DNA of 51,481 bases from an uncultured Tropicimonas sp. (GTDB lineage Bacteria > Pseudomonadota > Alphaproteobacteria > Rhodobacterales > Rhodobacteraceae). Of the stretch, positions 28,206 through 45,217 are shown piece by piece. The translations under genes were made by a program, and so were the position numbers. The notes under the pieces were generated by a model, which ran no database searches, was not told the DNA's origin, and saw nothing but the letters and a program-made list of their open reading frames with translations. Location of the stretch: positions 1 through 51,481 of the forward strand of contig CANLZY010000035.1 of NCBI GenBank assembly GCA_947495685.1, written 5' to 3'. How positions within the stretch are numbered: the stretch's first letter is position 1; every line of letters starts with the position of its first letter.

Positions 28206-28267
28206 TTGTTTCTCCCAACAAAAAGGGCCGCCTATTGGCGACCCAAATTTTGTTCGATTTCGCAAGG

Positions 28268-28390: not shown

Positions 28391-28404
28391 TTCAACCTCC
28401 TTTC

Positions 28405-28512: not shown

Positions 28513-28536
28513 TGCACTTCCTCCTTTGTTGAGTGC

Positions 28537-28827: not shown

Positions 28828-28924
28828 GTTCCTTTGTTCCGAGATTTGAAGATTTGTGAAACGAGTTCGTGTCGCTTCGAATCCTGTTCTACACCGACAA
28901 GCGAAATTGTTTCGGGGGGTAGAC

Positions 28925-29260: not shown

Positions 29261-29289
29261 GGTTGCACCTCGATTATCTGCATAAGAAG

Positions 29290-29317
29290 AAGCACCGCGC
29301 TGTTTCAGGCGGTGCTT
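29290..29317 (-). terminator. Hairpin after the 145-residue ORF
   Basis: AAGCACCGC (29290-29298) pairs perfectly with GCGGTGCTT (29309-29317) around ten bases. On the minus strand it lies 40 bases after the 29358 stop and is followed by CTTCTTATG. Confidence 0.55.
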
Positions 29318-29357
29318 CAGACTCTAGGCGATGCTTTTTCGGTTTTTGGTGGGTGGA

Positions 29358-29795
29358 CTAGTCGCTTGCCGGTGCGCTGTTGTCATTCGCAACGCGGATA
29401 CCCCACAGCATTGCATCGAACGGGTAGTGTGCGCTCAAGACCGTCGCGAAGATGCGGACACGTTCGCGTGCTTCTTCACGGACTCTGGGCTTAGCACCGT
29501 CTCTCAGCGGCGTGCAGAAGTCGCGAAACCACTCTCTGATGTTAGGGCGTTCGAACTCGTCCATATCGAGGAACACTTCCTTGCCGTCCGGTCCGACGAT
29601 CCATCCTGGGTAGTCTTTGTAGAGGTCGGTAAGATACTCGTGCCAGCGGCAGTCGCTGACATCCAGAAACCTCACAAACTCCTTCAAGTCTCGTAGATAG
29701 TTAGGGTCGTTGAGTTCGTCGTCGCCGACTACAGCAACACTTTTTTTCGGGCAGAATCCACTGGTCATGCAAGCGGTACAAAGTTGAAATCTCAT
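29358..29795 (-). CDS. Unknown 145-residue protein with N-terminal cysteines
   Basis: ATG 29795 gives MRFQLCTACMTSGFCPKKS at the N-terminus, a compact CxxCxxxxxC cysteine motif that may bind a metal. The rest is acidic and polar (EFVRFLDVSDCRWHEYL, PDGKEVFLDMDEFERPN) without membrane segments. No family recognised. It is leftward, divergent from the 356-residue ORF at 30085 across a 289-base gap where no gene was identified. Confidence 0.6.
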   Translation of the reverse strand: MRFQLCTACMTSGFCPKKSVAVVGDDELNDPNYLRDLKEFVRFLDVSDCRWHEYLTDLYKDYPGWIVGPDGKEVFLDMDEFERPNIREWFRDFCTPLRDGAKPRVREEARERVRIFATVLSAHYPFDAMLWGIRVANDNSAPASD

Positions 29796-30084
29796 CGCTC
29801 GGCCTTTCGCGCGCATGTTGTTCTCACTTCATCGCGAGGATTCAGCGTTGAGTTTTGTCGGCCCAATCCTTCCGAGAACTGATTTGGACAGTCGGGTTCA
29901 GGGCGGAGCACGCCGTTGGTTGTTGGGATACGAAAGGTCAAGGATAGCCTCCTATCTCGAACTGAAGGCGCCAAAATTTGCCGCCGCAGTCGTGTCGGGT
30001 GCACGACCACTTCTGCAACCGTGATTGCCCTAAACCACTGATGTGGTATACAAAACGGACTCCAAACTTTGAGCGCGAGATCCC

Positions 30085-31155
30085 TTGAAGACACCCTTAC
30101 GTACAATCGCCGCACGACAGGCTGAGACGGTAACTCCGTTCGTTCGGCAGCAAGTCCGTTGGGCTCTGTCTCGTTACCGCGCCAACCAAAAAATCGGCGT
30201 CCCGCGAATACTGAACGAGATTGTGGAAGCTCTCGGAGATGGAATCTCAGAAGAACTATCCACTCAGGACATCTACAATTTCCTGGATAACGGTCGTGAA
30301 ACCAGACCACACAAGGTCCGGCTGTTTCTGAGGTTTCTGGAACAAAAAGCTCCAGACTACGTTCGTTCGATCAGTTTTGATCAATTTGCCATCACTGCTG
30401 CTGACTTCGTGCACGCTTATTCAAGCGGATTGACTTCAAGGAAAGATGAGGCAGCACATGAACGCGGTCTCGGAAGGTTTCAGTCGGAGATTCTTTTCTC
30501 CGCCAAGAAAAACGGTAATCTAGACGATGCGTGGATGGAAGTGGGGCACCAGTTTGAATTTCTTGGTGTGGACTTGACAATCTTTGCGCTTAGATACCCC
30601 GGTTCCGGGTCCCACTTCCTATTCCATTCATTCAATCTGTACTTGAACAGCGGCTACTTCGATTGTCAGCGACTTGCCCCGACAGCCGATGAGAGAGTCG
30701 AGAAACATTTTACGCTAGACTCGCTGGCCGCAACGAAAGAAGTGATGGAAAACTTCACCTTTTCTGAAGACTTGCCGATATCTGAAAAGTCGCATGGCGT
30801 TGTGATCAATGGAAACAGTGGAGATTTGGGTAGCTCCGAAGGTCCGTTCCTCCTGATGAGAAGAGGAATTGAGCCTGGCGTCCAATTTGAACATTGCTCA
30901 ATACGATCCTTCAAGAGCGGCCCATACGCCGGTGAGTTTGGGCTTTCAATGAAGCGCCATTTCAATGATGACGAAGAGGACACCTTCGCCACGCGCAAAG
31001 TTGGCTTATATCCAATGTACTCAATGGATTACCTACTTGATGAACTCGTGGGTGAAACGGAGAGTTTTAACTCAAAAGGATCAGTGTTTTTTATTCCTCT
31101 TAAAAACAGCTCATTAGAGGAATTTATTGACGGCTTTGATTGGGGGAATGTATAG
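30085..31155 (+). CDS. Unknown 356-residue protein, first gene of an ankyrin module
   Basis: A TTG start at 30085 is likely. Product starts MKTPLRTIAARQAETVTPF. Residues 20-90 look like a helical, DNA-binding-like region (VRWALSRYRANQKIGVPRIL, GISEELSTQDIYNFLDNG); the middle has beta-rich segments (FEFLGVDLTIFALRYPGSGS) and the end is acidic. No family was recognised and no enzymatic motif stands out. Its TAG overlaps the GTG of the ankyrin gene by one base, so the two are coupled. The base composition is more AT-rich than the chromosome. Confidence 0.7.
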   Translation: MKTPLRTIAARQAETVTPFVRQQVRWALSRYRANQKIGVPRILNEIVEALGDGISEELSTQDIYNFLDNGRETRPHKVRLFLRFLEQKAPDYVRSISFDQFAITAADFVHAYSSGLTSRKDEAAHERGLGRFQSEILFSAKKNGNLDDAWMEVGHQFEFLGVDLTIFALRYPGSGSHFLFHSFNLYLNSGYFDCQRLAPTADERVEKHFTLDSLAATKEVMENFTFSEDLPISEKSHGVVINGNSGDLGSSEGPFLLMRRGIEPGVQFEHCSIRSFKSGPYAGEFGLSMKRHFNDDEEDTFATRKVGLYPMYSMDYLLDELVGETESFNSKGSVFFIPLKNSSLEEFIDGFDWGNV

Positions 31156-31571
31156 TGGCTGTTCCGCAAAAAAAAGGTTTGAACCGTCCGCGCGGAGGAG
31201 AAGGCGAGGAGAGAATTACACCAGATATTGTCCGGGCTGCGAAGAAAAACAATTCAAGGGGCGTTATCGACGCTTTGGCCGAGGACCCGTCATGTGTAAA
31301 TTCCTTTGACACTGAAACCCATATGACAGCGCTCCATTGGGCCTGCGCAAATCGAAACACCAAGATTTTCAACACTCTTGTTGATCATCCCGGCATCAAG
31401 CTTGAACCAGTCTCCAAGACGGGCAAAAAACCGGCACAACTAGCGTTGGAAAGTAGCGCACCAAACTTGGCTGATCAGCTTCACCGGAGAATCTTCATTC
31501 AAGATCACCTGGGCGACGACCCCTTCGAAGAGTCTACCAACGTGGAAAAGTTCGATCCAAGGGAACCCTAG
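31155..31571 (+). CDS. Ankyrin repeat protein coupled to the unknown gene
   Basis: The GTG at 31155 overlaps the previous stop; GGGGGA lies 8 bases before. The 138-residue product starts with a basic stretch (MAVPQKKGLNRPRGG) then has about two ankyrin repeats: MTALHWACANRNTKIFNTLV and a following TGKKPAQLALESSAPNLADQ. The preceding ITPDIVRAAKKNNSRGVIDA is the usual capping repeat. The end is acidic (DDPFEESTNVEKFD). Ankyrin domains bind proteins; the partner here is plausibly the upstream protein. Confidence 0.75.
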   Translation: MAVPQKKGLNRPRGGEGEERITPDIVRAAKKNNSRGVIDALAEDPSCVNSFDTETHMTALHWACANRNTKIFNTLVDHPGIKLEPVSKTGKKPAQLALESSAPNLADQLHRRIFIQDHLGDDPFEESTNVEKFDPREP

Positions 31572-31584
31572 AAGCTTTTTCATA

Positions 31585-31680
31585 GGTAAGACGCATTGTC
31601 AGGCCGCTGAACGGTTCGGCGTGTCGGAAAGCACGCTCCAAAGAGGCCTGCGTCGGCTCCAAATGGAAGCGGCAGCATAG
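31585..31680 (+). pseudogene. Remnant of a helix-turn-helix protein
   Basis: The 31-codon frame GKTHCQAAERFGVSESTLQR..., ending at TAG, reads as the C-terminal helix-turn-helix of a transposase or resolvase (FGVSESTLQRGLRRL). No start or domain is seen before it. It may be a scar of an earlier insertion right after the ankyrin gene. Confidence 0.4.
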
Positions 31681-32459
31681 GCGGTTTGCCTACTCCTTGC
31701 GTGCTGAACACTATCGTATTCTTGCACAGCACAATTCCCCAGTTTTCCTGTTATCTCTCACCCGCAAGATGTGTGTTGTAGTACCCAACACATCTTGGCA
31801 AGGGAGCCCGCTGCGCGCTCCCGTTGCATCCCTCCGGCCATGGCTCTTCTAGGGTGTTGAACCCATTTCAGAGCCAGTAGACCGTTTCGCCGGTCAATCA
31901 CTCGTGGGAGACTTCGCTCTCCCTGCACCCATCGATCCTTTCAGGAAGATCAAGGGCTATCGCGCCCCTGAACCCACTCGCAGGACTTGGAGACGTGCCT
32001 CTCCACCTGCACCGAACCATGCACGAACGACTGGTCGTTCGATCACCAATCAGGGGAGTGTTCCTGCTACCCCCGATACCCCCGATACCCCCATGAGGAA
32101 TTCATCCAGACGACTTCATCGAGAGCAAAGGCCGTTCCTGCCCTTATGCAATCCAGACCAGGAAGGGAGCAGTCGCGCTACCCTTCCTTGGAACCATCCC
32201 ATCGACCATAGGTGTTTCACGCCCTTGGAACTCAGGCCAACCCTGCGCGGAGTGGATACCGCCGCCTTCTCAAAGCTGGGCGATGTTACGATTTGGAACG
32301 CCTTCGCCAGAAGGCCATTACAACACGTTGTATTCAATCGAAAAAATCTTCCATTCAATCTGAGGATGTGGCATTCATAGAGCAGTATTTTTGATTGGAT
32401 TTTGCAAGCACTGCCGCTCCAACACTGATAACAATGAGAAAAAGTCTGACGGAGCAGTT
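31681..32459. other. Gene-poor, structured region before hsdM
   Basis: About 780 bases without a convincing gene; the long rightward frame at 31904-32380 has no ribosome site and unlikely composition. It holds a hairpin at 31765-31797, a second stem (GGGAGC 31802-31807 with GCTCCC 31817-31822) and a short tandem repeat of the unit CCCCGATAC near 32070-32092. It should contain the promoter of the hsdM operon. Confidence 0.5.
31765..31797. repeat. Strong hairpin in the gene-poor region
   Basis: The arm at 31765-31778 pairs with CAACACATCTTG (31786-31797) over 12 bases with a two-base bulge and a seven-base loop. It lies about 190 bases after the ankyrin gene and is not followed by a T run, so it is not a clear terminator. 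Confidence 0.6.
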
Positions 32460-34469
32460 ATGATGGAACATGTTGGAGAAATCGAAAAACGGCTTTGGTC
32501 GGTGGCCGACCATCTTCGGGCAAACTCGAACTTTGCAAGCAACGAGTACTTCCTGCCCGTCATGGGGCTGATCTTCTTGCGCCATGCCTACAGCCGTTTT
32601 TTGCGTGTTCAGGACGACATCAAGGCATCGCTTCCGTCGCGCGGCGGCGTCACACGCCCACTGACAAAGGAAGATTTCTCGCAGCGCGGCTCGATCTTTC
32701 TGAAGCCTGAAGCTCAGTTCGATCATCTAGTTGCCATCCCTGACGGCGGGGATCGGGCCGGTGCAATCATCGCTGCAATGGAAAGCATTGAAGCAGATTA
32801 CCAATCCCTCGACGGCGCACTGCCCAAGTCCGAATACCAAGAACTTGGTGACGACGATCTTGGCCAGCTCTTGCGCACCTTCAACGATCCCGCGCTTCAA
32901 AAAGCAGACGGCGACGTTTTTGGGCGCATCTACGAATACTTCCTGACGCAGTTCGCCGATCAGAAAGCCCACGATGGCGGCGAATTCTTCACGCCTGTTT
33001 CAATCGTTCAAACGCTGGTCAACGTCATCGAACCTGACCACGGCAAGATTATCGACCCCGCTTGTGGTTCAGGCGGCATGTTCGTTCAATCCGCGCATTT
33101 CATAGAAAAGATGAAAGCCAACCCCAGCGACCGCGTGACCTTCTACGGGATGGAAAAGAACCCGACGACGATTCGCCTCGCCAAGATGAACCTCGCGGTT
33201 CACGGGCTTGAGGGCGACATCAGCAAGGCGATTTCCTACTACGACGACCCGCACAAGGACAAAGGGCCGTTTGATTTCGTCATGGCCAATCCGCCGTTCA
33301 ACGTGGACGAGATTGACGCTGAGAAAATCAAGAACGACGACCGGCTGGAATTCGGATTGCCTGGGGTAAACAAGGGCGGCAAGGTTTCCAACGGCAACTA
33401 CGTCTGGATGTCGTTCTTCCATGCATACCTGTCAGAAACCGGGCGCGCGGGTATCGTGATGTCCTCGCAGGCGTCCTCTTCTGGGGGCGGTGAGGCCAAG
33501 GTGCGCGAAGCGATGATCAAGACCGGCGATGTTGATGTCATGATGGGCATTCGCGGCAACTTTTTCTACACGCGCTCCGTGCCCTGTGAGCTCTGGTTCT
33601 TTGACAGGGCCAAACCCGAGCACCTGAAAAACAAGGTACTGATGATTGATGCGCGCAATGTCTACCGCAAGGTCACGCGCAAGATTTACGACTTCACACC
33701 GGAGCAACAACAGAACCTGTCCAGCATCGTCTGGCTTTATCGTGGTCAAGCTGACCGTTTTCTGACGTTGGTGCAAGACTATCTGAAAACCGCCTTCACC
33801 CAGATGCAGGCCTGCGATTTTGACGGATTTGAGAAGGCTCTTAAGGCTGTAACCGAAGCGCACAAGGATGAGGAACTGCACAAGCTGGCTGAAACCGTCA
33901 CGGATGATATCGCGGCGCTCAGCGCCAGTGCTATCGAAGCGCGCAGTGAGCATTGGGATAATGCCGCTAGAGATAATGGCGGATTGAAAACCTCCAGCGC
34001 GGCGTTCGAGCCGGTAGCAGATGAAGCCAAGGCCTTGGTCAAGGAAATCGACCACCTCTACAAGCTTGCGACCCGTGTGCATGACGCTGATGTAGCAGAT
34101 GGCACCAAGCCCGCTGAGGGTAAGAAACGCTTGAACGAGCTGGATGTGGCGCGGCACGAAGTTATCGAACATCTGAAGGACGCGCGGTACTTTCACACGC
34201 AAGCAGAATGGCTACAAACTCGGTTTCCAGATGCGAAGCTTTGCGATGTAGAAGGCTTAGTCAAGTTGGTTGGCCACAAAGAGTTGGAAGCTAACGACTG
34301 GAGCTTGACACCGGGTCGCTATGTCGGCGTGGCACCGGAAGAAGAGGATGAAGACTTCGACTTCGAGGAAGCCCTTCGCGACATCCATATAGAGATCGAG
34401 GGGCTGAATTCCGAGGCGACTGAGTTGGCAGCGACCATCAAAAAGAACTTTGAAGAGTTGGTAGTATGA
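32460..34469 (+). CDS. hsdM: Type I restriction-modification methyltransferase subunit
   Basis: HsdM methylates adenine in the recognition site and is needed for both restriction and modification. The 669-residue product has an N-terminal HsdM domain (EIEKRLWSVADHLRANS, FLRHAYSRF), GGEFFTPVSIVQTLV, SAM motif DPACGSGGMFV near residue 199 and catalytic NPPFNV near residue 277, plus a long C-terminal tail. The start at 32460 follows GGAG; an ATG at 32463 is also possible. It overlaps hsdS by four bases. It is the first gene of the defence operon. Confidence 0.95.
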   Translation: MMEHVGEIEKRLWSVADHLRANSNFASNEYFLPVMGLIFLRHAYSRFLRVQDDIKASLPSRGGVTRPLTKEDFSQRGSIFLKPEAQFDHLVAIPDGGDRAGAIIAAMESIEADYQSLDGALPKSEYQELGDDDLGQLLRTFNDPALQKADGDVFGRIYEYFLTQFADQKAHDGGEFFTPVSIVQTLVNVIEPDHGKIIDPACGSGGMFVQSAHFIEKMKANPSDRVTFYGMEKNPTTIRLAKMNLAVHGLEGDISKAISYYDDPHKDKGPFDFVMANPPFNVDEIDAEKIKNDDRLEFGLPGVNKGGKVSNGNYVWMSFFHAYLSETGRAGIVMSSQASSSGGGEAKVREAMIKTGDVDVMMGIRGNFFYTRSVPCELWFFDRAKPEHLKNKVLMIDARNVYRKVTRKIYDFTPEQQQNLSSIVWLYRGQADRFLTLVQDYLKTAFTQMQACDFDGFEKALKAVTEAHKDEELHKLAETVTDDIAALSASAIEARSEHWDNAARDNGGLKTSSAAFEPVADEAKALVKEIDHLYKLATRVHDADVADGTKPAEGKKRLNELDVARHEVIEHLKDARYFHTQAEWLQTRFPDAKLCDVEGLVKLVGHKELEANDWSLTPGRYVGVAPEEEDEDFDFEEALRDIHIEIEGLNSEATELAATIKKNFEELVV

Positions 34470-35527
34470 GCGTGGGAACCATAAAACTTGGTGATGCTCT
34501 CAACCTCTACAATGGCAAGGCTCCCGTGCTGTCTGAAAACGGGGAAGTCACAGTGTTCGGGTCCAACGGTGTAATAGGTAAGAGCGAAAAGGCTAATCAT
34601 CCTAGATCGATCATATTGGGCCGCGTGGGAGCGTACTGTGGCGCAGTCAAGTTTTCAGATGAGCCTTTTTGGGCTTCGGACAACACGATAGTCGTACGTC
34701 CTGTCGAAGGACACGATCTAAAGTACTGGTATTATAAACTTCAAAGCATACCCCTTCGAGGATATGCGGGGGGTGCAGCGCAACCACTGATCACACACTC
34801 GATCATTAAGCCCTTGGAAACTCAGGTACATGACGACGTCGCTGTGCAACAGCGCATCGCCTCAGTCCTTTCCGCATACGACGATTTGATTGAAAACAAC
34901 TTGCGGCGGATCGCGGCATTAGAAGAAGCGGCGCGGCTCTTGTATCGCGAATGGTTCGTCTATTTCCGTTTTCCCGGCCACGAGCACATCGAGATCGTCG
35001 AAGGGGTGCCTGAAGGGTGGGAACAGCTAGCACTTGAGGAACTTCTGGTTCTGCAACGTGGTTTCGATCTACCAGTAGCATCGCGTAACGACGGTAACGT
35101 GCCGGTCTATGGATCGACCGGCATCGTAGGCTACCACGATGTCGCCAAGGTCAAAGCACCCATGCTCATCACAGGTCGATCTGGCTCCTTGGGGAAAGTT
35201 GTCTTCGTATCGATCCCCTGTTGGCCCTTAAATACCGCCCTTTGGGTAAAGGAGTTTCGCCGCATTTCCCCTTGGTTTGGGTACTTTTTGTTGAGCGAAC
35301 TGGGGCTGGAAAAGTTTAACGGCGGCGCGTCCGTTCCGACGCTTGATAGAAAGGTCGTTCACCGCTTGTCGGTTGCACGACCTACTGACCAATTGCTGAA
35401 CTCATTCGACGAACAGGTTAAGCCTTCATTCGAAATAATGGATAAACTCAACCAGCAAAATGAACAACTTGCCAAGGCCCGTAACCTGTTACTCCCCCGC
35501 CTAATGGACGGCAGGATAGAAATTTGA
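34466..35527 (+). CDS. hsdS: Type I restriction-modification specificity subunit
   Basis: HsdS reads the two halves of the target sequence and bridges HsdM and HsdR. The 353-residue product has two target-recognition domains with similar layout (first: GDALNLYNGK, VFGSNGVIGKSEKA, GRVGAYCG; second: LQRGFDLPVASRN, VYGSTGIVGYHDVAK, GRSGSLGKV), separated by a central helical region (DDLIENNLRRIAALEEAA) and ended by NEQLAKARNLLLPRLMDG. Both domains look complete. The start overlaps hsdM as ATGA. The second domain lies at residues about 180-320. Confidence 0.92.
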   Translation: MSVGTIKLGDALNLYNGKAPVLSENGEVTVFGSNGVIGKSEKANHPRSIILGRVGAYCGAVKFSDEPFWASDNTIVVRPVEGHDLKYWYYKLQSIPLRGYAGGAAQPLITHSIIKPLETQVHDDVAVQQRIASVLSAYDDLIENNLRRIAALEEAARLLYREWFVYFRFPGHEHIEIVEGVPEGWEQLALEELLVLQRGFDLPVASRNDGNVPVYGSTGIVGYHDVAKVKAPMLITGRSGSLGKVVFVSIPCWPLNTALWVKEFRRISPWFGYFLLSELGLEKFNGGASVPTLDRKVVHRLSVARPTDQLLNSFDEQVKPSFEIMDKLNQQNEQLAKARNLLLPRLMDGRIEI

Positions 35528-35531
35528 AAAC

Positions 35532-38500
35532 ATGAACGATTACACCGAAGACCAATTAGCCCAAGCCACCCTCGCAGAGTATTTGCAGGACGAACTCGGC
35601 TGGGAGTCTGTCTTCGCGTTCAACACTGAAACCTTCGGGCCGGAAGGCACGCTGGGCCGCAAATCTGACCGCGAGGTGGTGTTGACGCGTCACCTAGGCG
35701 AGGCGTTGATCCGCCTGAACCCTGGCTTGCCGGATGAGGCCTACACCTACGCCCTGCGCCAGATCACTGATACGCTGGCCTTTCAATCCACCGTCCAGAC
35801 CAACAGCGAGAAGTACGAACTGATCCGCGACGGGGTGGTCGCCAGCTACAAGACGAACGGCGAGATCAAGAAGACGCGCCTGAAGGTCTTCGACTACGCC
35901 AACCCCGAGAACAACAACTTCCTCTGCGTGCGTGAGATGTGGGTGAGCGGCCCCAACGGCCACCGCCGCCGCCCCGACATCATCGGTTTCGTCAACGGCC
36001 TGCCACTGATGTTCGTGGAGCTGAAGCGCCCCGACAAATCGCTGCGTCGCGCCTATGACGACAACTTCAAAGACTACATGGACACGATCCCGCAGCTCTT
36101 CCACTTTAACGCCTTTGTGGTGCTGGGGAATGGGATCGAAGCCAAGGTTGGATCGATCAGCGCCAAGTACGAACATTTTAGTGATTGGAAGCGACTAGCC
36201 GAAGGTGAAAAAGGCGTGGTGCAGATGGAGACCCTTGTGAAGGGTATCTGCACCAAGGCCAACTTCCTCGACATCTTTGAGAACTTCATTCTGTTCGATG
36301 ACAGCACCGGAAAGCTCGCCAAAATCGTTGCGCGTAACCACCAATACCTTGGGGTCAATCGCGCGTTGCAATCGGTGATCGAACGTAAGGAGCGCGATGG
36401 GAAACTTGGCGTGTTTTGGCACACGCAGGGCTCGGGCAAGTCTTATTCTATGGCGCTGTTCGCGCAAAAGGTGCGGCGCAAGCTTGGAGGTGACTTCACC
36501 TTCCTCGTGCTGACCGATCGCGCCGATCTGGACAAACAGATATACGACACCTTCGCGGGTGTTGGTCTTGCCAACAATGACAAAGACCCGTGCCGCGCCG
36601 ATAGCGGTGACGAACTGAAGAATTTACTTGGCCAACAGAAAGCATTTGTTTTCTCGCTGATCCAGAAGTTCAACAAAGAGATCAAAGATGGTGACGCCTA
36701 TTCCGATAGGGAAAATATCATCGTCATGACCGATGAGGCGCACCGAACCCAGTACGGAACGCTGGCGATGAACATGCGGGATGCTCTGCCAAACGCCAGC
36801 TTCATCGGCTTCACTGGAACGCCGCTGTTTACCAGCGATGAGATTACGCAGCGCGTCTTTGGTGGCTACATTTCCACTTACGACTTCCAGCGGGCGATTG
36901 AGGATAACGCCACGCTTCCGCTCTACTATGACGCGCGTGGTGACAAGCTCGGGCTCTCTGCGGAAGGGCTGAATGAAAAGTTGGCTAGTGCCATTGCCGA
37001 TGCCGAAATCAGTGACGCTGACGTGGCGGCTAAGCTGGAGAACGAACTCAAGCGCGAATACCATGTTGTCACTGCCGAGAAGCGCCTGAAGCATATCGCG
37101 ACCGATTTCGCAGAGCACTATTCGACCAACTGGGAAACCGGAAAGGCGATGTTTGTCGCGATCGACAAGATCACCGCCGTTCGCATGCATGCTTACTTCC
37201 TGGAGGCTTGGAAAACTAGGATTGCGAAGTTGGAAGCCGAACTTTCAACGGCGAAAGATGACCAAGATCAATTGGTTCGAGAGCGGCAACTTGCATGGAT
37301 GCGCGAAACCGAAATGGCCGTTGTCATCAGTGATGAACAAGGAGAAGTCGACAAGTTCCGCAAGTGGGACTTGGATATCTTACCGCACCGCAAATTGATG
37401 CGAGAAGGTTTCCTCCTCGAAGACGGGAAACGCCTTGATGTTGAATCCGCATTTAAGCGTGAAGATCACCCGTTCCGTGTTGTCATCGTTTGCGCAATGT
37501 GGCTCACCGGTTTTGATGTGCCTTCGCTCTCGACGCTCTACCTCGACAAGCCGTTGCAAGCGCACACGCTGATGCAGGCAATCGCCCGCGCAAACCGTGT
37601 GCATGAAGGCAAGAACAATGGGCTAATAGTGGATTACTGCGGAATCTTGAAGAATCTTAGAAAGGCGCTTTCGACTTTTGCGGGTCATACTGGCGAAGGT
37701 GACTTCGATGCTGAAGGAGGCAATACCAATGATCCGTTGCATCCTGAAGAAGAGCTTCTGGAAGAGCTTGCAGAAGCGATAGAATTTGTTCGCAACCAGT
37801 TGAATGAAAATGGCTTTGGTCTCTCAACACTTAACACAGCAACTGGTTTTGCACGCAATAAAGCACTACTAGATGCCAAGGAAGCAATAAATATTGATGA
37901 TGAAAGCCGGAAAAAGTTTGAGATTTCTGCCCGCTCTGTATTCAGGAAATACAAAGCCTGTCTGACGTTCAAGGGCGTCCAAATGTTCCGTGCGGATGCC
38001 GAAGCGATCAGCTTCCTTTACAAGACGCTTCAAGATGATCGTGAAAACGCGGACACCTCAGAAATAATCCAGAAACTGAATGCGATCGTCAGCGATGCGA
38101 TCGACGTGGAGGCTAATGTCGAATCCGATGACAAGGTATTTGACATATCCAAGATCAATTTCGACCTTCTGAGGAAAGAGTTTTCAAAGAGCGAAACCAA
38201 ACGATCCGACGTTCAGGACGTTAAGACTGTTGTTGAGGATCGCCTTCGGAAAATGCTTGAACAAAATCCTTTGCGTACTGATTTTCAAGAACGGTTCGAT
38301 GAAATTGTTCGGGATTACAACAAGGAAAAAGATAAAAACACGATTGAAGCCACGTTTGAAGCATTGATGCGATTGACCGCTGAGATGAGTGCAGAATCCA
38401 AGAGATATGTTAAGGAAGGGTTGGACAGCGAGGAACAGCTTGCTGTCTTCGACATGCTTCTAAAGCCCGACTTGTCCAAATCAGACATCAAGAAAATAAA

Positions 38501-38741
38501 ATCAGTCGCGGTTGCGCTTCTTAAGTCGCTCGAACAGCAAATGCATGATGTTCAGGATTTATTCGGGAAGTCGTCCACACGTGATCGCTTCCGGCAGTCA
38601 ATATACGATTACCTTTATGATGACCGAACTGGTCTTCCGGTGACATCTTACACTGAGGCAGACTTAGATACAAAAACCGCTTCCCTATTTAGCTTCTTTG
38701 AGCAACAGGCGCGACGTAGTGTTTATGATACCCGTATTTAG
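35532..38741 (+). CDS. hsdR: Type I restriction endonuclease subunit R
   Basis: HsdR translocates DNA and cuts it. The 1069-residue product has an N-terminal PD-(D/E)xK nuclease domain with RRRPDIIGFVNGLPLMFVEL ending in LKRPD near residue 162, Walker A GSGKSYSM near 300, DEAH (TDEAHRTQYG) near 400, GFTGTPL and a C-terminal helicase motif region (DKPLQAHTLMQAIARANRV). It begins four bases after hsdS. Its C-terminal half is helical. The next gene starts 14 bases after its stop. Confidence 0.95.
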   Translation: MNDYTEDQLAQATLAEYLQDELGWESVFAFNTETFGPEGTLGRKSDREVVLTRHLGEALIRLNPGLPDEAYTYALRQITDTLAFQSTVQTNSEKYELIRDGVVASYKTNGEIKKTRLKVFDYANPENNNFLCVREMWVSGPNGHRRRPDIIGFVNGLPLMFVELKRPDKSLRRAYDDNFKDYMDTIPQLFHFNAFVVLGNGIEAKVGSISAKYEHFSDWKRLAEGEKGVVQMETLVKGICTKANFLDIFENFILFDDSTGKLAKIVARNHQYLGVNRALQSVIERKERDGKLGVFWHTQGSGKSYSMALFAQKVRRKLGGDFTFLVLTDRADLDKQIYDTFAGVGLANNDKDPCRADSGDELKNLLGQQKAFVFSLIQKFNKEIKDGDAYSDRENIIVMTDEAHRTQYGTLAMNMRDALPNASFIGFTGTPLFTSDEITQRVFGGYISTYDFQRAIEDNATLPLYYDARGDKLGLSAEGLNEKLASAIADAEISDADVAAKLENELKREYHVVTAEKRLKHIATDFAEHYSTNWETGKAMFVAIDKITAVRMHAYFLEAWKTRIAKLEAELSTAKDDQDQLVRERQLAWMRETEMAVVISDEQGEVDKFRKWDLDILPHRKLMREGFLLEDGKRLDVESAFKREDHPFRVVIVCAMWLTGFDVPSLSTLYLDKPLQAHTLMQAIARANRVHEGKNNGLIVDYCGILKNLRKALSTFAGHTGEGDFDAEGGNTNDPLHPEEELLEELAEAIEFVRNQLNENGFGLSTLNTATGFARNKALLDAKEAINIDDESRKKFEISARSVFRKYKACLTFKGVQMFRADAEAISFLYKTLQDDRENADTSEIIQKLNAIVSDAIDVEANVESDDKVFDISKINFDLLRKEFSKSETKRSDVQDVKTVVEDRLRKMLEQNPLRTDFQERFDEIVRDYNKEKDKNTIEATFEALMRLTAEMSAESKRYVKEGLDSEEQLAVFDMLLKPDLSKSDIKKIKSVAVALLKSLEQQMHDVQDLFGKSSTRDRFRQSIYDYLYDDRTGLPVTSYTEADLDTKTASLFSFFEQQARRSVYDTRI

Positions 38742-38755
38742 AGAGCTCTAGTTGA

Positions 38756-39730
38756 ATGCATACTTGCCCGCCCCCCAAGAACGAATTTAAGAAAAGGTTT
38801 GCCGAATACCCTGATGTAAAAGGAAATTTTGGGCACACACTTCTTGAACAGACGAAGGCAGACGATGGTTCACTTGCAGAAGCCTTGAAAGGGTATTTCG
38901 AGTCCGCCCATTTAGACGCACGCGATAAATTTCACGCCGATATCGGTATTGACCTTCACCCAGATGCTGTTGGGGATGAACCTGTGGTGGCCTATCCAGT
39001 TTCCTTACCGAGGACAACTCGACGTGGTCTTTTCGGTGAAGTAATGGCAGGACTTCTGACTGAAACTTACAAATATGTGGGGAAGCATGATTGGTCCGTT
39101 CCCATTTTTTTATTCCGCCATCACGAGGACGCTTTCCAGTACCTTTTTAGCTTGGCTAGAAATCCAGAACGCACTCGGCAAACAATTGGACGGTTGGGAT
39201 CAGATTTTATCGGACTAGCCCTAGATGAAGACCTAAATGTTACCCGGATAATTTCTGGTGAAGCAAAATGGCGGCAAACTTTGACTGAAGGCGTTGTTGA
39301 AACGCTTATGCTAGGAGACTGGGTTGCGAAGGACAAAAGTAAAAAGAAGAGCAAAGAAAACCGTGAACGATCAGGAAAGGGTGTCTGGTACTTTGTGAAT
39401 AATGAGCCGAAAGTTCCAAGTGGAGCTAGGCAACTGCAACGACTTCTCCAAGAACACGACCCAGATGGACATGACGCTACCATCCTATCTCTCCAATCGA
39501 TACTTGTAGCAAAAAATCCAGTCCCCATTCCGAAAACTGACCTCGTGGTGGTCGTGGGCAACGGAGGAAAAACGCGCGAGGAAAGGGAATGTTTGCTTCC
39601 ATTCAAGAAGGCTCCTGCAGAATATACTGCGGGGAACGACCTGCAAATTGTGGAGGTCATCATGGCTAGCGGCGAAGAGTTGATCGATACAATTTACGCG
39701 AGCCTCTGGAAAGAAGATGCAAATGCCTGA
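38756..39730 (+). CDS. hamA: HamA-like DUF1837 protein (Hachiman effector)
   Basis: In Hachiman systems HamA (DUF1837) is a nuclease-like effector that works with the HamB helicase. The 324-residue product has GLFGEVMAGLLTETYKY near residue 90, LFRHHEDAFQYLFSLAR, the GRLGSDFIGLALDEDLNVT segment and ISGEAKWR near residue 168, an ExK pair like that of PD-(D/E)xK nucleases. The ATG at 38756 is preceded by GAGAG. The gene overlaps the helicase by 14 bases, a sign of co-translation. AbpA-like proteins are an alternative relative. Confidence 0.78.
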   Translation: MHTCPPPKNEFKKRFAEYPDVKGNFGHTLLEQTKADDGSLAEALKGYFESAHLDARDKFHADIGIDLHPDAVGDEPVVAYPVSLPRTTRRGLFGEVMAGLLTETYKYVGKHDWSVPIFLFRHHEDAFQYLFSLARNPERTRQTIGRLGSDFIGLALDEDLNVTRIISGEAKWRQTLTEGVVETLMLGDWVAKDKSKKKSKENRERSGKGVWYFVNNEPKVPSGARQLQRLLQEHDPDGHDATILSLQSILVAKNPVPIPKTDLVVVVGNGGKTREERECLLPFKKAPAEYTAGNDLQIVEVIMASGEELIDTIYASLWKEDANA

Positions 39731-42700
39731 GCTTGATTCAGAACGTCGCGAGATAATAGATGAGTTGCGCCGCCAAATCGCATCGGAGAATGAACTTACA
39801 GCGAACCAAGCGAGAGCTTTTGTTCGGGGACTACAAACTGGTTGGAATGTGCCTACTATTCAGTGGAGTATATCAGCTTCCCGTGAGCAGTACGACGATG
39901 CAAGGCGACTTCTAAATGCGGCGTCCATATTTCAATCATTGGATGGACGTGGCTCACCTGAAGCAAGATTTTGCTACCAGCGAAGCGCTGAACTTCTTGA
40001 GTGGTTGTCACGCGCAAAAGACAAAATCGAGTCTCCCGTTTCTTTGGAGTTGTTAGCGGCAGCAGCTTATCAGCTCGGTGGTAGCCCTGCCATGGCTACC
40101 ACATTGTTGGTCCAAGCAGAGTCAAAAAGTCGTGGTGAAGGGCTGTATGCGGACTTTCTTCGTGCGAATTTTGATGGAGTATTGCGATCTGTTTCCGATT
40201 TCTGGCTCGACAATCCTGAAATTTCTAATCGAGATGCTCAACGACAAATCCTGGAAGACGATGGCGAAGACAAAGTCAGTTGGTTCCTCACGGTTGAACT
40301 AGTTCGTGTTTTGGGGCTTCTCGCTGATACTATCAGGCGAGGAGAAGTAGACCGTTTTGAGTTGGCGAAACGAAAGCTCTCCGCGCTGGATGACCTCGCT
40401 ACAAGAACATTTTCGGATGAAGTGTCTTTGCTCATAACGCTACTTCATCAAGTTTCAATCGACTTCGGTGAAGCAAGTATCTACGTGCCAATTAGACAAC
40501 TAAGCGCGCTGAAACCAGAGCGAGCCAGCCGTCTTGAGCGGTTCGCTCGAGGTCAATTTAGCCGAGGGCGAGGCATTCTTTGGACTTCACAACGCCAGGG
40601 CTTGGCACGCCTTTTGGAAGAAGAATCTTTTGCTTTGTGCACCCCAACCGGCTCAGGAAAAACACTCGTTGCCAATCTGGCGCTTGTGAAAGAGCTTTTG
40701 CTAAAGGGCGATGACGACGGGCCTCTCGCTCTTTACTTGGTACCGTCTCGAGCTCTAGCAAGCGAAGTCGAAACAAAGCTTTCGAGTGAACTTGCTAATG
40801 ATGTGATCGTGACTGGCTTGTACGGTGGTACCGATTGGGGCGTAACGGACTATTGGTTAGACGCAGACGAACCCACTGTGTTGGTTGCAACAGTCGAAAA
40901 AGCTGACGCATTGATGCGCTATCTTGGTCCACTCCTATTGCGTCGGATAAAGCTGCTGATTGTCGATGAGGCTCACCAAGTCGTCCCCGAAGACAACGAA
41001 CGAACGCAAGATGATTTTGCAGAACATTCTTCTCGTTCCCTTCGCCTTGAAGCTTTTGTTTCAAGACTCCTGTCGCAAGCTCCTGATACTATTCGCATCG
41101 CATTAACTGCCGTTGCAGGCGGCGCAGCCCATCCAGTTGCTAGATGGATACAGGGACATGATGATGCGGTTCCCGTAGGGTCGAATTATCGAAGTACACG
41201 GCAACTTGTTGGCTCTTTTGAAACAGCTCCAGACCGAGCCGGTCAAATGCTTCTTGAGATATTAAATGGAAAACCACTATTTGTCCGTGGGCGAGACGAA
41301 CCTGTTTATATCAATCTTCGCACGCCACCGATGCCACAACTTCCGGCTGCGATGCGGAACAGCATCTATCGCTTCAATCAACTTGACGTCCTTTGGACGT
41401 CGCTGCACCTGGCAAGTAGCGGTCGCAGAATACTAATTTCGATTGCGCAACAACCAGAGAGAACGATGGGATGGTACAAGGATGCCCTATCACTAAATAC
41501 TTGGAGCGATGCACCGTTCTTTGAACCACCTGAAGAGGAAAACGAACTGCGTAGTTTCAATGATGCTCGTGCCGCATGCGTTGATTATTGCGGAGAGAAT
41601 TCTTATGAAGTCGCTCTGCTCGATCATGGAATTGCTACCAATCACGGACAAATGCCTCAACGGATCCGGCGGATGATGGTTGATCTTATTGACCGAGGGA
41701 TTTGCCCAGTTACCGTTGCCACTGCGACGCTGACGGAAGGTGTAAACCTCCCCTTTGATATCATATTTGTCCCATCGCTTATGCGGCGGTCATTTAATGC
41801 TGCCGAAGAACAGCAAGTAGAAAACCGGATGTCTACCGCTGAGTTTAGAAATCTGGCAGGGCGTGCTGGTCGCCCTGGTGCGGGCAAGGGCCTTGAAGGC
41901 ATTACGCTCGTGCCCATCCCTGTTCGGCCTTCAACAACGGCCCAAGGTGGCCTACGAACGCAGCGACGACAGATCGCAACGATGCAAGAGCATTGGAAAA
42001 CTCTCAGGCAATCACTCTTAGCGGAAGAGTTGGAGAGATTTGATATCGACAGTCCTTTGGCTTTGCTTCTGAACGGAATCGCCCAACGAGCAAGGGAACT
42101 CCTCAATGTCGCCGGAGAAGAATTTCTGGGCTGGCTAGAAGCCGTTGTTCCGCCCGATATCAGCGATCTAGCTGGACGCGCCTCCGAAGATGAGATGGCC
42201 CGTTTGGCAGATAGTGTCGACGAGTTAGATGGCGTATTGCTGACAGCATTGGAAGAATTGCAACGTATTGATGATACAGGGCTGGAAGGTGTTTTAGCTG
42301 AAGAAGCTTTGGCGGCAATTTGGAATAAAACTTTTACAGTTTATGCAGCCGCACAAGAAGAATGGATGGAAGCTGCTTTTATTCACCGTGGGCAAGCTCT
42401 TCTGAGGGATATCTATTCCGAAAGAGATGAGCGTGGCCGTCTCTACCAGTACGGTTTTACCCCCTACGTTGGAAGGCGGTTCGAAGCGGTTGTACCAGAT
42501 ATGTTGAAGGTTTTAAGTGATACGACGAGTTATGGAGATGCTGATGACGCGACGCGTCTTTCGGTTTTCGCTAACCTCGGAAAACTGCTAGCCGACGATC
42601 GAGGTTTCGGTTTTAGGGTGCGCTCAACTGCCACAGATCAAGCCATTCTCGCAAATTGGCAAGGCGTTTTGGGATGGTGGATGCGGGCGGCAGAATTCGA

Positions 42701-43343
42701 ACCACCCGATCCCAAAGACCTTCGAGTTTGGCAACGTTTCGTAAGTGACAATCTGGATTTCCGGCTGGGCGTAGGATTGGGTGCCGTCGTCGCAAAATCT
42801 TGGTCTGACGGTGTTGAAGGCGCATTGGTCATACCTTCGCTGGAGGCATGGCGTGAAACGACTAAACTACCATGGTTTGGTTTTTGGGCAAGGGAGCTTC
42901 TCCGATGGGGAACTTTGGAGCCTTTTGTTGCCTTCTCACTGGCTGAAGGTTTGGTCGGAACGCGAAGCCAAGGGATGGAGCTCAAACAAGAATTTTCCGT
43001 TTGGTTGGAAGAGCAAAAGACCGAAGTAGATGCAGAAGACCGAATTGATCCGCAGTTGTTCCTCGAGTGGCGCAGATCGAGAGCTGAAGGTCCTGAGGCC
43101 AGAGTTCGAAAGAGAACAATCAATGTCAAACTCGATAACACAGCCGGTGAACGAGGTCAGTATTCTGTGATACCGATCGTCTATGACAACGTCATACATT
43201 GGTTTGATGCTGCAGGTTTTTCTCTTGCTCAGTCGAATGCAGAAAACTTTCCTTTTCAAGGCCTGGTTCATCGAGACGATTTTCAACTTCGAACTGATCG
43301 AGATAGACCGACAGTGAGACGAACGTATTCAGGAAGCTCATAA
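39717..43343 (+). CDS. hamB: HamB-like superfamily 2 helicase, 1208 residues
   Basis: The product is a large helicase with a ~300-residue helical N-terminal region (repeat-like helices around QLGGSPAMATTLLVQ), Walker A as CTPTGSGKTLVANL near 305, VDEAHQV (DEAH) near 416, ALTAVAGG (motif III) and NLAGRAGRPGAGKG near 713, a Ski2-like motif VI. The C-terminal ~450 residues are unassigned. The partner overlap with hamA supports the Hachiman call. HamB has been described as a DNA-loading helicase that controls HamA; the role here is inferred from the pair. A start at 39723 is possible. Confidence 0.75.
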   Translation: MQMPELDSERREIIDELRRQIASENELTANQARAFVRGLQTGWNVPTIQWSISASREQYDDARRLLNAASIFQSLDGRGSPEARFCYQRSAELLEWLSRAKDKIESPVSLELLAAAAYQLGGSPAMATTLLVQAESKSRGEGLYADFLRANFDGVLRSVSDFWLDNPEISNRDAQRQILEDDGEDKVSWFLTVELVRVLGLLADTIRRGEVDRFELAKRKLSALDDLATRTFSDEVSLLITLLHQVSIDFGEASIYVPIRQLSALKPERASRLERFARGQFSRGRGILWTSQRQGLARLLEEESFALCTPTGSGKTLVANLALVKELLLKGDDDGPLALYLVPSRALASEVETKLSSELANDVIVTGLYGGTDWGVTDYWLDADEPTVLVATVEKADALMRYLGPLLLRRIKLLIVDEAHQVVPEDNERTQDDFAEHSSRSLRLEAFVSRLLSQAPDTIRIALTAVAGGAAHPVARWIQGHDDAVPVGSNYRSTRQLVGSFETAPDRAGQMLLEILNGKPLFVRGRDEPVYINLRTPPMPQLPAAMRNSIYRFNQLDVLWTSLHLASSGRRILISIAQQPERTMGWYKDALSLNTWSDAPFFEPPEEENELRSFNDARAACVDYCGENSYEVALLDHGIATNHGQMPQRIRRMMVDLIDRGICPVTVATATLTEGVNLPFDIIFVPSLMRRSFNAAEEQQVENRMSTAEFRNLAGRAGRPGAGKGLEGITLVPIPVRPSTTAQGGLRTQRRQIATMQEHWKTLRQSLLAEELERFDIDSPLALLLNGIAQRARELLNVAGEEFLGWLEAVVPPDISDLAGRASEDEMARLADSVDELDGVLLTALEELQRIDDTGLEGVLAEEALAAIWNKTFTVYAAAQEEWMEAAFIHRGQALLRDIYSERDERGRLYQYGFTPYVGRRFEAVVPDMLKVLSDTTSYGDADDATRLSVFANLGKLLADDRGFGFRVRSTATDQAILANWQGVLGWWMRAAEFEPPDPKDLRVWQRFVSDNLDFRLGVGLGAVVAKSWSDGVEGALVIPSLEAWRETTKLPWFGFWARELLRWGTLEPFVAFSLAEGLVGTRSQGMELKQEFSVWLEEQKTEVDAEDRIDPQLFLEWRRSRAEGPEARVRKRTINVKLDNTAGERGQYSVIPIVYDNVIHWFDAAGFSLAQSNAENFPFQGLVHRDDFQLRTDRDRPTVRRTYSGSS

Positions 43344-43361
43344 CATCCTAATCGATGAACG

Positions 43362-43394
43362 TAGGCGCGAAAGCACTATGGACCGTCGCGCCTA
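43362..43394 (+). terminator. Hairpin after the defence operon
   Basis: TAGGCGCGA (43362-43370) pairs perfectly with TCGCGCCTA (43386-43394) around 15 bases, 18 bases after the hamB stop. It has no T run, so it could be a weak terminator or part of a structured leader. Confidence 0.5.
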
Positions 43395-43436
43395 ATTCGC
43401 CAGCCCTGAGAGGCTGACTTTTTCCTTCGTTGAAAT

Positions 43437-43559
43437 GGGGCCTGCGGCCCCCAGGCCATCAAGACCTAAACGCCCTGTGGGGCGCGCACGGCGTGTATCC
43501 CCGTCCTTCCGCACTCCTTCGTCGTTTGTGCAGGGCGGGTGATCCCCCTCACGCCGTGC
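43437..43559. repeat. Cluster of inverted repeats upstream of ardC
   Basis: Four paired elements follow each other: GGGGCC/GGCCCC (43437-43451), CGCCC/GGGGCG around 43471-43484, and GCACGGCGTG (43486-43495) with CACGCCGTGC (43550-43559), a perfect 10-base inverted repeat spaced by 54 bases. The segment lies 84 bases before the ardC start. Such structured segments before anti-restriction genes of conjugative elements can act as single-strand promoters; this is inference. Confidence 0.5.
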
Positions 43560-43643
43560 GGGTCTTGACCGCCATCCCCCGCTCATTGGCGCGGGCCTAG
43601 TCCAGTTGCATGCGCAACCGGCTATCTAGGAAAGGAAAAGCCA

Positions 43644-44540
43644 ATGAAAAAAGACATTTATCAGAAAGTGACGGACAAGATCATTGCAGATTTGGAGCAA
43701 GGCGAGCTCACTTGGTTGAAGCCTTGGAGCTCTGCAAACACAGATGGGCGGATCATCAAGCCGCTCCGTCATAACGGTTTGGCCTATAGCGGGATCAATA
43801 TTTTGATGCTGTGGGGCGCTGCGATGGAGGGCGGTTATGCATCGCCGTACTGGATGACCTTCAAGCAGGCCAAGGAGTTTGACGCTCACGTCAAAAAGGG
43901 TGAGCGCGGCAATTTGGTTGTATATGCCAACACCATCACCAAGACCGAAGAGACCAGCGACGGCGGCGAGCAAGAGCGTAAAATCCCGTTCATGAAGGGG
44001 TATTCAGTGTTCAATGTAGAGCAGATCGAAGGGTTGCCCGATCACTACTATGCCGAGCCGCCAAAGATCATCGACCCTGTTTCGCGGATTGATCATGCAG
44101 ACAGCTTTTTTGCAAAGACGGGTGCAGATGTTCGCCACGGCGGAAACCGCGCGTTTTATAGCGGTGGCAGCGATCATGTGCAGATGCCGTTCTTTGAGAG
44201 CTTCCGCAGCTCAGAGGCATACTACGCAACCCTAGCGCATGAGCTGACCCATTGGACAAAGCACAAGAGCCGTCTTGATCGTGAGTTTGGCCGCAAGAAA
44301 TGGGGGGATGAAGGCTATGCACGCGAGGAACTTGTGGCCGAGCTTGGCGCAGCATTTCTTTGCGCTGATCTGGCATTGACGCCGGAACCCGGCAGCGATC
44401 ATGCCGCCTATATTCAAAGCTGGCTCAAAGTCTTGAAAGACGATAAGCGCGCGATTTTCAGCGCTGCCGCTCATGCCCAACGCGCAGCAGACTTCTTGCA
44501 CTGTTTTCAGGCAGAAGAAGAAGCGGGAGCGGCGGCATAG
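43644..44540 (+). CDS. ardC: ArdC-like antirestriction protein
   Basis: ArdC proteins bind single-stranded DNA and protect incoming plasmid DNA. The 298-residue product has the N-terminal ArdC domain (KDIYQKVTDKIIADLEQGEL, PLRHNGLAYSGINILMLW, YWMTFKQAKEFDAHVKKG) and a C-terminal zinc-metalloprotease-like region with LAHELTHWTKHKSRLDREFG (HExxH) and EELVAELGAAFLCADL. ATG 43644 follows AGGAAAAGCCA. It sits in the conjugation part of the element; it may help the element escape restriction, including its own type I system. Confidence 0.9.
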   Translation: MKKDIYQKVTDKIIADLEQGELTWLKPWSSANTDGRIIKPLRHNGLAYSGINILMLWGAAMEGGYASPYWMTFKQAKEFDAHVKKGERGNLVVYANTITKTEETSDGGEQERKIPFMKGYSVFNVEQIEGLPDHYYAEPPKIIDPVSRIDHADSFFAKTGADVRHGGNRAFYSGGSDHVQMPFFESFRSSEAYYATLAHELTHWTKHKSRLDREFGRKKWGDEGYAREELVAELGAAFLCADLALTPEPGSDHAAYIQSWLKVLKDDKRAIFSAAAHAQRAADFLHCFQAEEEAGAAA

Positions 44541-44624
44541 ACATCCCAAGATCACATTCAGGCTCCCATGAAAGGGTGTCTGAAACCATTCAAATCAAAA
44601 AGTATCCAAAGACTGCCATAGCGA

Positions 44625-44780
44625 TCATTGCGCTGGCTGAAGCCATCCAGAAATTCGTGAAACGGTCACCCCGCGAACTACTGTCTTCATCATGCACCGG
44701 TCTTTTTTGTCGTATCTGTGAAGCGCGCCGTAAGCACAAACCCCAACAACAAGACCCAATAAAATAGCTAATAAAGACAT
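44625..44780 (-). CDS. Possible 51-residue membrane protein, leaderless
   Basis: A frame of 51 codons on the minus strand starts ATG 44780 with MSLLAILLGLVVGVCAYGAL, one membrane helix, then a charged tail (RYDKKDRCMMKTVVRGVT). No ribosome site is present; instead an extended -10 box ends six bases before the ATG, so it would be leaderless. A rightward frame over the same region is less convincing. Treat as tentative. Confidence 0.35.
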   Translation of the reverse strand: MSLLAILLGLVVGVCAYGALHRYDKKDRCMMKTVVRGVTVSRISGWLQPAQ

Positions 44781-44786
44781 AGATTT

Positions 44787-44814
44787 ATTATACCATACCC
44801 CAATGAAATCGCAA
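44787..44814 (-). promoter_or_regulatory. Extended -10 promoter, copy 2
   Basis: Minus-strand -35 TTGCGA (44809-44814), 16-base spacer and TATGGTATAAT with TATAAT core at 44787-44792. The 11-base block is identical to that at 26182-26192. Confidence 0.55.
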
Positions 44815-44816
44815 AT

Positions 44817-44842
44817 CGCGGTGGGCCTTTCGGCCCACCGCG
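44817..44842 (-). terminator. Perfect 11-base hairpin, terminator-like
   Basis: Arms 44817-44827 and 44832-44842 pair perfectly around TTTC. It follows the stop of the 59-residue ORF by six bases on the minus strand. A short T-rich stretch follows. Confidence 0.75.
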
Positions 44843-44848
44843 CGAGGC

Positions 44849-45028
44849 TTAAAGACCTGGCATACGCGATGCCAGCTCAGCCTCGATGTTTTCCAAGGAA
44901 GCCAGAGCATCTTGGCGCTCCAGCGATCCGCGCGGCGCAGCAGAAAAAGCGTTGAATGCTTTTCTGAAAAGGCCGTGCAATTGTGCTGTGCTGCGTGATG
45001 CTGCTTCAAAACGTGTGACGAGTTTCAT
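44849..45028 (-). CDS. 59-residue helical protein
   Basis: ATG 45028 is preceded by GGAGGATCAC, a strong ribosome site. The product starts MKLVTRFEAASRSTAQLHGL and is helical, with LFRKAFNAFSAAPRG and LASLENIEAELASRM. No family was recognised. It follows the relaxase gene by about 190 bases on the same strand. Confidence 0.65.
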   Translation of the reverse strand: MKLVTRFEAASRSTAQLHGLFRKAFNAFSAAPRGSLERQDALASLENIEAELASRMPGL

Positions 45029-45160
45029 GTGATCCTCCATCGTCAGGGAGGCCCCAAACCACTCAGGGCCTTTCGGCCCCCACACATCAAGGCGCTTGAT
45101 GGTTTGGTTGGTCTGTTTTGCTTGGCTATGGTGGATCACATGTGAACGGCATTCGTATTG

Positions 45161-45182
45161 ATGCGGCTACTTGCAGCCGCAT
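45161..45182. terminator. Hairpin after the relaxase gene
   Basis: ATGCGGCT (45161-45168) pairs perfectly with AGCCGCAT (45175-45182) around six bases. It is 35 bases beyond the relaxase stop on the minus strand, but no T run follows on that strand. Confidence 0.45.
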
Positions 45183-45217
45183 AAAAGGTTTCATGGTCTG
45201 ATGAGAAGGTTCGCTCG

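Follow-up and report, generated by a model that had tools for sequence, protein, structure and literature searches.

Does a type I restriction-modification (RM) system that runs directly into a Hachiman-like gene pair form one linked defense system with it, or do two defense systems stand in a row? The question is raised by five rightward genes, hsdM, hsdS, hsdR, a hamA-like gene and hamB (Table 1), on contig CANLZY010000035.1 of an uncultured Tropicimonas sp. (assembly GCA_947495685.1); the whole stretch analyzed, 51,481 nucleotides, is referred to here as the window. An initial annotation had described the five genes as a tight operon whose two halves act together. Our analysis upheld the co-directional, operon-like row and did not uphold the linked five-gene system. 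We consider it probable that the locus holds two complete, separately evolved defense systems, placed head to tail on a mobilizable island, with hamAB being a modular pair that needs no dedicated coupling. A dedicated five-gene type I RM-HamAB system was rejected, because conserved linkage is lacking both from the hamAB side and from the hsdR side. The row is best seen as one among several stackings of known defenses that arose separately; type I RM and Hachiman are already known, and the points of note are the divergence of this HamA lineage and its habit of standing at the tail of operons.

The open reading frames reproduced the joints reported previously, namely, overlaps of 4 bases (hsdM/hsdS) and 14 bases (hamA/hamB) and gaps of 4 bases (hsdS/hsdR) and 14 bases (hsdR/hamA). 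The hsdM frame opens with TTG at 32391, and the ATG at 32460 is preceded by GGAG; the hamA start is backed by homologues, most of which begin at the same residue (MHxCPPP). A consensus scan of positions 32300 to 43500 gave no promoter-like or terminator-like match at the hsdR-hamA joint, where the initial annotation had held that such an element would uncouple the two halves. Across the scanned region, promoter-like matches (5, against a shuffle mean of 7.1) and terminator-like matches (8, against a shuffle mean of 13.2) were both fewer than in the shuffles. The sole candidate for a hamAB promoter within hsdR, at 38041 near its 3' part, is at chance level, and the weak hairpin downstream of hamB starts 58 bases past the last base of that gene. 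The spacing, together with the lack of a match at the hsdR-hamA joint, makes one transcript plausible, and as judged from the spacing the five genes are probably read as such.

Analysis of the first three genes revealed no departure from a known type. HsdM matched N6_Mtase (E = 3.5e-73) and HsdM_N in Pfam and MTase_I PDLC03035 in PADLOC (838.7 bits), in scans that used the frame from 32391, and it contains the motifs DPACGSGG and NPPF. HsdS matched Methylase_S in Pfam (E = 1.1e-16) and Specificity_I in PADLOC (E = 5.6e-71). HsdR matched HSDR_N and SWI2_SNF2 in Pfam as well as TIGR00348 (512.5 bits) and contains ELKRP, GSGKS, DEAH and TGTP; four relatives with 63 to 67% identity align with it up to residue 1059-1060. 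The motifs were called intact by patterns that we take to mark the hsd catalytic motifs, and hsdMSR is, as predicted from its sequence, an ordinary type I RM set in the order M-S-R. In its three subunits, their order and their motifs it resembles type I systems with a TIGR00348-type HsdR; only the neighbor is unusual.

The 1,208-residue helicase is HamB, which is clear by sequence and by fold. It matched PADLOC HamB1 (E = 4.8e-52), and its GSGKT, DEAH and GRAGR motifs are intact. The best PDB sequence match was the solved HamB chain 8vx9_B, at E = 9.2e-21 with the protein alone and at E = 1.5e-40 with a 32-row profile over positions 60 to 1032. A model of residues 1 to 1190 (pLDDT 85.2) was matched best in the PDB by three HamB chains and aligned with 8vxa_A at TM scores of 0.71/0.74 over 1,264 alignment columns. 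With residues 1 to 1190 matching solved HamB, the large C-terminal part that the initial annotation had described as unassigned fits HamB, as does the long helical N terminus. In solved HamAB the N-terminal bundle of HamB binds HamA (PMC12278908; this source and PMC10732053, PMC12322248 and PMC12799240 are cited here from excerpts).

The 324-residue protein, encoded by a single-copy gene in its genome, had been labeled DUF1837. Pfam did not back this label, giving no hit at E values up to 10, with the curated cutoff of PF08878 (HamA, formerly DUF1837; 25 bits) not reached, and PADLOC backed it weakly, its HamA profiles matching at E = 0.0038 (14.9 bits). The PF08878 profile had 0 matches in the whole genome of origin, and a PDB sequence search with the protein alone gave no hit; a 53-row alignment profile had HamA as its only PDB match, at just E = 0.039. 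Such faint matches are what would be expected if the protein were another PD-(D/E)XK nuclease that had teamed with a HamB-like helicase. The AlphaFold2 model (pLDDT 92.2) argues against this alternative. Its best Foldseek matches were the HamA chains 8vx9_A (E = 3.9e-6, probability 1.00, TM 0.53/0.65) and 8vxy_A (E = 6.3e-6, probability 1.00), the only PDB matches at E ≤ 0.001, and the weak third match, 8zue_A (E = 0.013, probability 0.72), is also Hachiman. In the profile alignment, with positions counted along the alignment, E169 and K171 fall on HamA residues E138 and K140, whose replacement by alanine abolished defense (PMC12278908). Residues D150, E169 and K171 are invariant across the 53 aligned rows, window included, and at E ≤ 0.01 45 of the 53 rows match PADLOC HamA profile PDLC00159 (best, 3.6e-5) and 38 match PDLC00155 (best, 4e-7). 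We regard a non-HamA nuclease as highly improbable. Because of its fold, motif and partner, we infer that the protein is a divergent HamA that lies outside the Pfam HamA profile. The pairing with a helicase as a Hachiman-like unit was thereby supported, HamB by sequence and fold and HamA by fold, motif and partner.

Like E. coli Hachiman (8vx9/8vxa/8vxy), the locus has adjacent hamA and hamB genes, the HamA fold with D-E(X)K residues, and a Ski2-like HamB with a helical N-terminal domain and intact helicase motifs. Unlike it, the window HamA has 324 residues, versus 259 in the solved chain, is 13% identical in the structural alignment, falls outside PF08878 and stands behind hsdMSR. AbpAB also combines a nuclease with a Ski2-like helicase and has a HamA-like domain. 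However, AbpA has 538 residues, an N-terminal Cap4 nuclease and, according to Tuck et al., an inactive HamA site (PMC10732053, PMC12278908), whereas the window protein is without a Cap4 domain and keeps the HamA residues. The N-terminal Cap4 domain expected of AbpAB was not found: the 324-residue protein has no Pfam hit, and most homologues share its MHxCPPP start.

We then considered the linkage of hamAB with type I RM across genomes. A tblastn search for hamA relatives gave 26 plasmid records, of which 14 neighborhoods were examined, and from a genome scan the best 80 of 97 relatives were kept. The pair itself is stable: a helicase match adjoins hamA in all 14 plasmid neighborhoods (split or broken in L013, L014 and L016), and a hamB match does so in 76 of the 80 genome loci. 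On a Calothrix plasmid (L019), HamA-like and HamB-like parts occur in a single open frame. The window hsd genes had no match at E ≤ 1e-5 in any of the 14 plasmid neighborhoods. The nearest hamAB relatives, on a Leisingera plasmid (L006) and in Roseovarius (L021), are both 63/76% identical to the window pair; they have no hsd match within the 21 to 25 kb fetched and are preceded by opposite-strand genes 395 and 485 bases away. HsdR in the genome flanks was sought by tblastn with four HsdR queries, which distant type I families may escape, and type I RM was found in 3 of the 80 loci (L040, L075 and L096). In six loci (L029, L035, L063, L064, L076 and L091) less than 3 kb lies upstream of hamA, where an hsdR could escape notice; therefore, 3 of 74 is the stricter figure. 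In a control set with Pfam-recognized HamA, type I RM was present in 0 of 12 loci, which are too few for comparison with 3 of 80 and include one (L122) almost without upstream DNA. Recurrent tight linkage of hsdMSR with hamA relatives, which the initial annotation had put forward as a check on its reading, was thus not borne out. No near copy of positions 32300 to 43500 was found on plasmids, no copy of the joint in the 8 other genomes of the genus, no hamA relative in viral contigs and no hamB relative in phage records.

The view from hsdR was similar. At E ≤ 1e-150 HsdR was found in 6 of 290 family genomes, including the genome of origin, and the DNA surrounding the five other relatives contains no hamA or hamB match at E ≤ 1e-4. 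In four of these five the next downstream frame of at least 80 residues is on the opposite strand; in the fifth the contig ends there. Nor are the type I sets themselves uniform. The best PADLOC HsdM profile is PDLC03035 for the window, PDLC03019 for L040 and PDLC03029 for L075 and L096. For HsdR the four agree on PDLC03040 as the best profile, with scores of 540, 1067, 134 and 134 bits in the same order, and over the aligned parts the window HsdR is 33% identical to that of L040 and 23 to 24% identical to those of L075 and L096. The four type I cases require four changes when placed on a 77-row HamA tree. The tree was made with a quick method and without L001 to L005, ten loci that were truncated, split or odd, identical proteins and rows containing stops, and the placement of long branches, L075 and the window included, is unsure. 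The four tree changes and three distinct HsdM profiles, together with nearest hamAB kin that have no hsd match and five hsdR kin that have no hamAB match, argue against a linked system.

Several observations weigh against two independent systems that were merely stacked. In the three loci, type I RM always stood directly upstream of hamAB in the same orientation, with no tblastn match in any other part of the flanks, and such ordered placement exceeds what free scatter in an island predicts. The L075 and L096 type I sets are related (36 to 41% identity) and have the same HsdM profile, so that their histories may be partly common. Between hsdR and hamAB, third-position GC drops from 0.62 to 0.42 (z = 9.8), though without a sharp step, because the value declines from 0.79 to 0.50 along hsdR, whose last quarter stands at 0.50. 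Finally, cotranscription is read from gene spacing alone.

The ordered placement could reflect a functional relay, in which HsdR would cut unmethylated phage DNA and the ends would load HamB, RM serving as the sequence-specific trigger and HamAB as amplification and suicide, with selection keeping the five genes together. This idea stays alive because all three type I cases are directly upstream and co-directional, two of them with related sets, and the 14-base hsdR-hamA gap of the window is in keeping with it. Free single-stranded DNA (ssDNA) ends and DNA damage activate HamAB, and damage by other defense systems is named by the authors as a contributor (PMC12278908). In Streptococcus thermophilus, a native island with Hachiman and type II RM protects far more than plasmid-borne Hachiman alone (PMC12322248; the excerpt gives no figure for RM alone). 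As in the window, Hachiman there adjoins RM on one small island, although the RM is of type II and the host is different. A relay is nonetheless unlikely, in that adjacency occurs in three of the 80 loci, with gaps of 208 to 331 bases, and close hamAB kin occur without RM. Furthermore, hamAB is found equally close to SIR2/Argonaute and VapC-like genes, and many hosts that carry hamAB and an HSDR_N gene have them non-adjacent. Type I RM is common in hosts of hamAB relatives: of the 79 distinct genomes carrying the 80 loci, 43 have HSDR_N matches (18/39 plus 26/41, one genome shared), a good part of the weaker matches being in short frames that need not be HsdR. By our own estimate, made without a tool computation, adjacency in 3 of 80 loci is far above random gene placement; it is not clearly above clustering in defense islands.

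Type I RM is one of several upstream partners of this hamAB lineage. SIR2 and short-Argonaute (SPARSA-like) genes lie directly upstream on the same strand in 4 of the 80 loci, at 29 to 64 bases. Three of these (L086, L089 and L090) form a single branch of the HamA tree and the fourth (L022) belongs to another; in L022 the SIR2/Argonaute genes are themselves preceded by a type II RM pair that consists of an Eco57I-type methylase and a BsuBI/PstI-type nuclease. PADLOC names both L022 genes and the smaller L086 gene, the larger L086 gene is Pfam SIR2_2, and the L089 and L090 genes were assigned by BLAST. On plasmid L013 a gene annotated VapC, of toxin-antitoxin-like type, ends 8 bases upstream of hamA, and BLAST relatives precede hamA in eight genome loci; a VapC-like gene is the upstream partner in a Sphingomonas group. 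Other upstream genes, each seen in one or two loci, encode a DUF1156 methylase with an SNF2/PLD helicase (L026) and Fic (L099), AIPR (L085) and EVE (L079) proteins. In L097 a transposase-like gene stands between hamA and a type III-like Res frame; the upstream proteins of L023, L043 and L050 and the smaller one of L086 had no Pfam hit. Neighbors were counted with a simple gene picker in 7 plasmid and 80 genome loci, reduced to 68 by removal of near-identical copies and of loci without a near-full hamB. Within 350 bases, 34 of the 68 loci had a same-strand neighbor upstream and 17 had one downstream; in 7 loci such an upstream neighbor was no more than 50 bases away. Because of these partners and counts, hamAB tends to the tail of co-directional rows, and the 14-base hsdR-hamA joint of the window is one of a class of tail positions. 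The tail is not an exclusive position, however, as relatives of the SIR2 gene, the Argonaute gene or both stand near hamAB in the opposite orientation in L031, L032, L041 and L066. The type I RM of the window and three loci, and the type II RM with short Argonaute of one locus, might also be read to mean that the underannotated HamAB lineage is a portable 3' add-on, which would make sequence-specific defenses abortive by sensing DNA ends or damage from the upstream system. We consider this reading, too, rather improbable.

Table 1. Locations of the genes, the island and related loci discussed in the text
Feature	Location	Strand	Basis or remark
hsdM, type I DNA adenine methyltransferase, 669 aa	32460..34469	+	Pfam, PADLOC, motifs
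hsdS, type I specificity subunit, 353 aa	34466..35527	+	Pfam, PADLOC; 4-base overlap with hsdM
hsdR, type I restriction subunit, 1069 aa	35532..38741	+	Pfam, TIGR00348, motifs, relatives
hamA-like nuclease, putative divergent HamA, 324 aa	38756..39730	+	AlphaFold2 model, Foldseek, profile alignment
hamB, Ski2-like SF2 helicase with N-terminal helical domain, 1208 aa	39717..43343	+	PADLOC, PDB, model, motifs
Terminator-like hairpin, 5-pair stem, T-rich tail	43401..43416	+	Consensus scan; such matches not above chance in region
Mobilizable island carrying the cluster	24038..48719		ARAGORN, Pfam, GC; borders approximate, right border not established
Serine recombinase frame	24038-25647	-	Ends inside tRNA-Ala(GGC)
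Ankyrin-repeat frame	31140-31571		Upstream of hsd genes
ArdC-type antirestriction gene	43644-44540		ArdcN plus zincin-like peptidase
Type I RM before hamAB, Paraburkholderia	L040	same as hamAB	Directly upstream; 300-base gap holding a 64-residue frame
Type I RM before hamAB, Marinicaulis metagenome-assembled genome	L075	same as hamAB	Directly upstream; 331-base gap
Type I RM before hamAB, Yoonia	L096	same as hamAB	Directly upstream; 208-base gap
SIR2 plus short Argonaute before hamAB	L022:3850-10951, L086:6619-10948, L089:5689-10000, L090:6640-10939	same as hamAB
HamA-like and HamB-like parts in one frame, Calothrix plasmid	L019:11917-16620
Records labeled "aminotransferase"	Plasmid records H2, H5, H6, H8, H9, H12, H13, H16, H18

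The island on which both systems lie comprises tRNA-Ala(GGC), a serine recombinase, a type IV secretion system (T4SS) coupling protein, ArdC, a relaxase, MobC and a transposase-like end. GC per kb is 0.45 to 0.56 at 24 to 48 kb, versus 0.57 to 0.65 to the left and 0.59 to 0.63 to the right. The overlap of the recombinase frame with the tRNA suggests the left border of an integrated mobilizable island; in the search for the right border, no exact repeat of at least 14 bases of the tRNA region was found in the window. The ArdC-type gene begins 300 bases past hamB, so that restriction and antirestriction genes share the island. Its presence would suit a guard arrangement like that of EcoprrI and PrrC, in which the RM complex would keep HamAB silent until RM was disabled by an antirestriction factor of a phage. 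EcoprrI with PrrC resembles the window in that an extra effector gene is tied to type I RM. It differs in that the effector is a tRNA nuclease and not a HamA-like DNase. In studied Hachiman HamB itself restrains HamA (PMC12278908), and relatives of the pair that stand without RM would be unguarded. These points make a guard arrangement very unlikely.

With two stacked systems, the reading that we favor, the type I RM would methylate self DNA and cut unmethylated incoming DNA, as is typical of its family. The Hachiman-like pair would be a second layer, in which HamB surveys DNA and switches on the HamA nuclease when it meets damage such as a free single-stranded end, whereupon DNA would be degraded and the infection aborted. 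For E. coli HamAB, activation of HamA by HamB on free ssDNA ends or damage, leading to DNA degradation, has been published (PMC12278908); for the window pair, the fold and the intact residues suggest the same mechanism. The two-gene hamAB unit would repeatedly have arrived at the 3' end of other rows, many of them of defense genes, and here at that of hsdMSR. Hachiman systems also take up extra modules, a protease-nuclease pair being present in about 5% (PMC12799240). HsdR cleavage could supply ends that strengthen the HamB signal, and it is possible that such ends trigger HamAB, a cooperation that would fit the published HamAB biochemistry. The locus is also a natural setting in which to ask whether DNA breaks made by RM feed a sensor of genome integrity. 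Literature searches on Hachiman with restriction, operon or classification, whose coverage mostly excludes subscription papers, on RM-linked tRNases and on short Argonaute with Hachiman gave no title on a type I RM-HamAB operon among the matches listed.

The plasmid relatives of the HamA-like protein are annotated as hypothetical or as "aminotransferase," the latter in 9 of the 26 records; this second annotation is backed by neither fold nor motifs. Because of such labels, and because Pfam misses this HamA, the Hachiman lineage is likely undercounted in public annotation. It occurs in 5 of 295 family genomes and 9 of 390 order genomes, about 2% of those sampled; the genome of origin counts in both samples, which cover overlapping groups, and two of the nine order matches are broken. 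A Pfam scan of 20 frames of the window, small frames being outside it, revealed no HamC (DUF3223), the gene that adjoins hamAB in type II Hachiman. An ankyrin-repeat frame lies upstream of the hsd genes.

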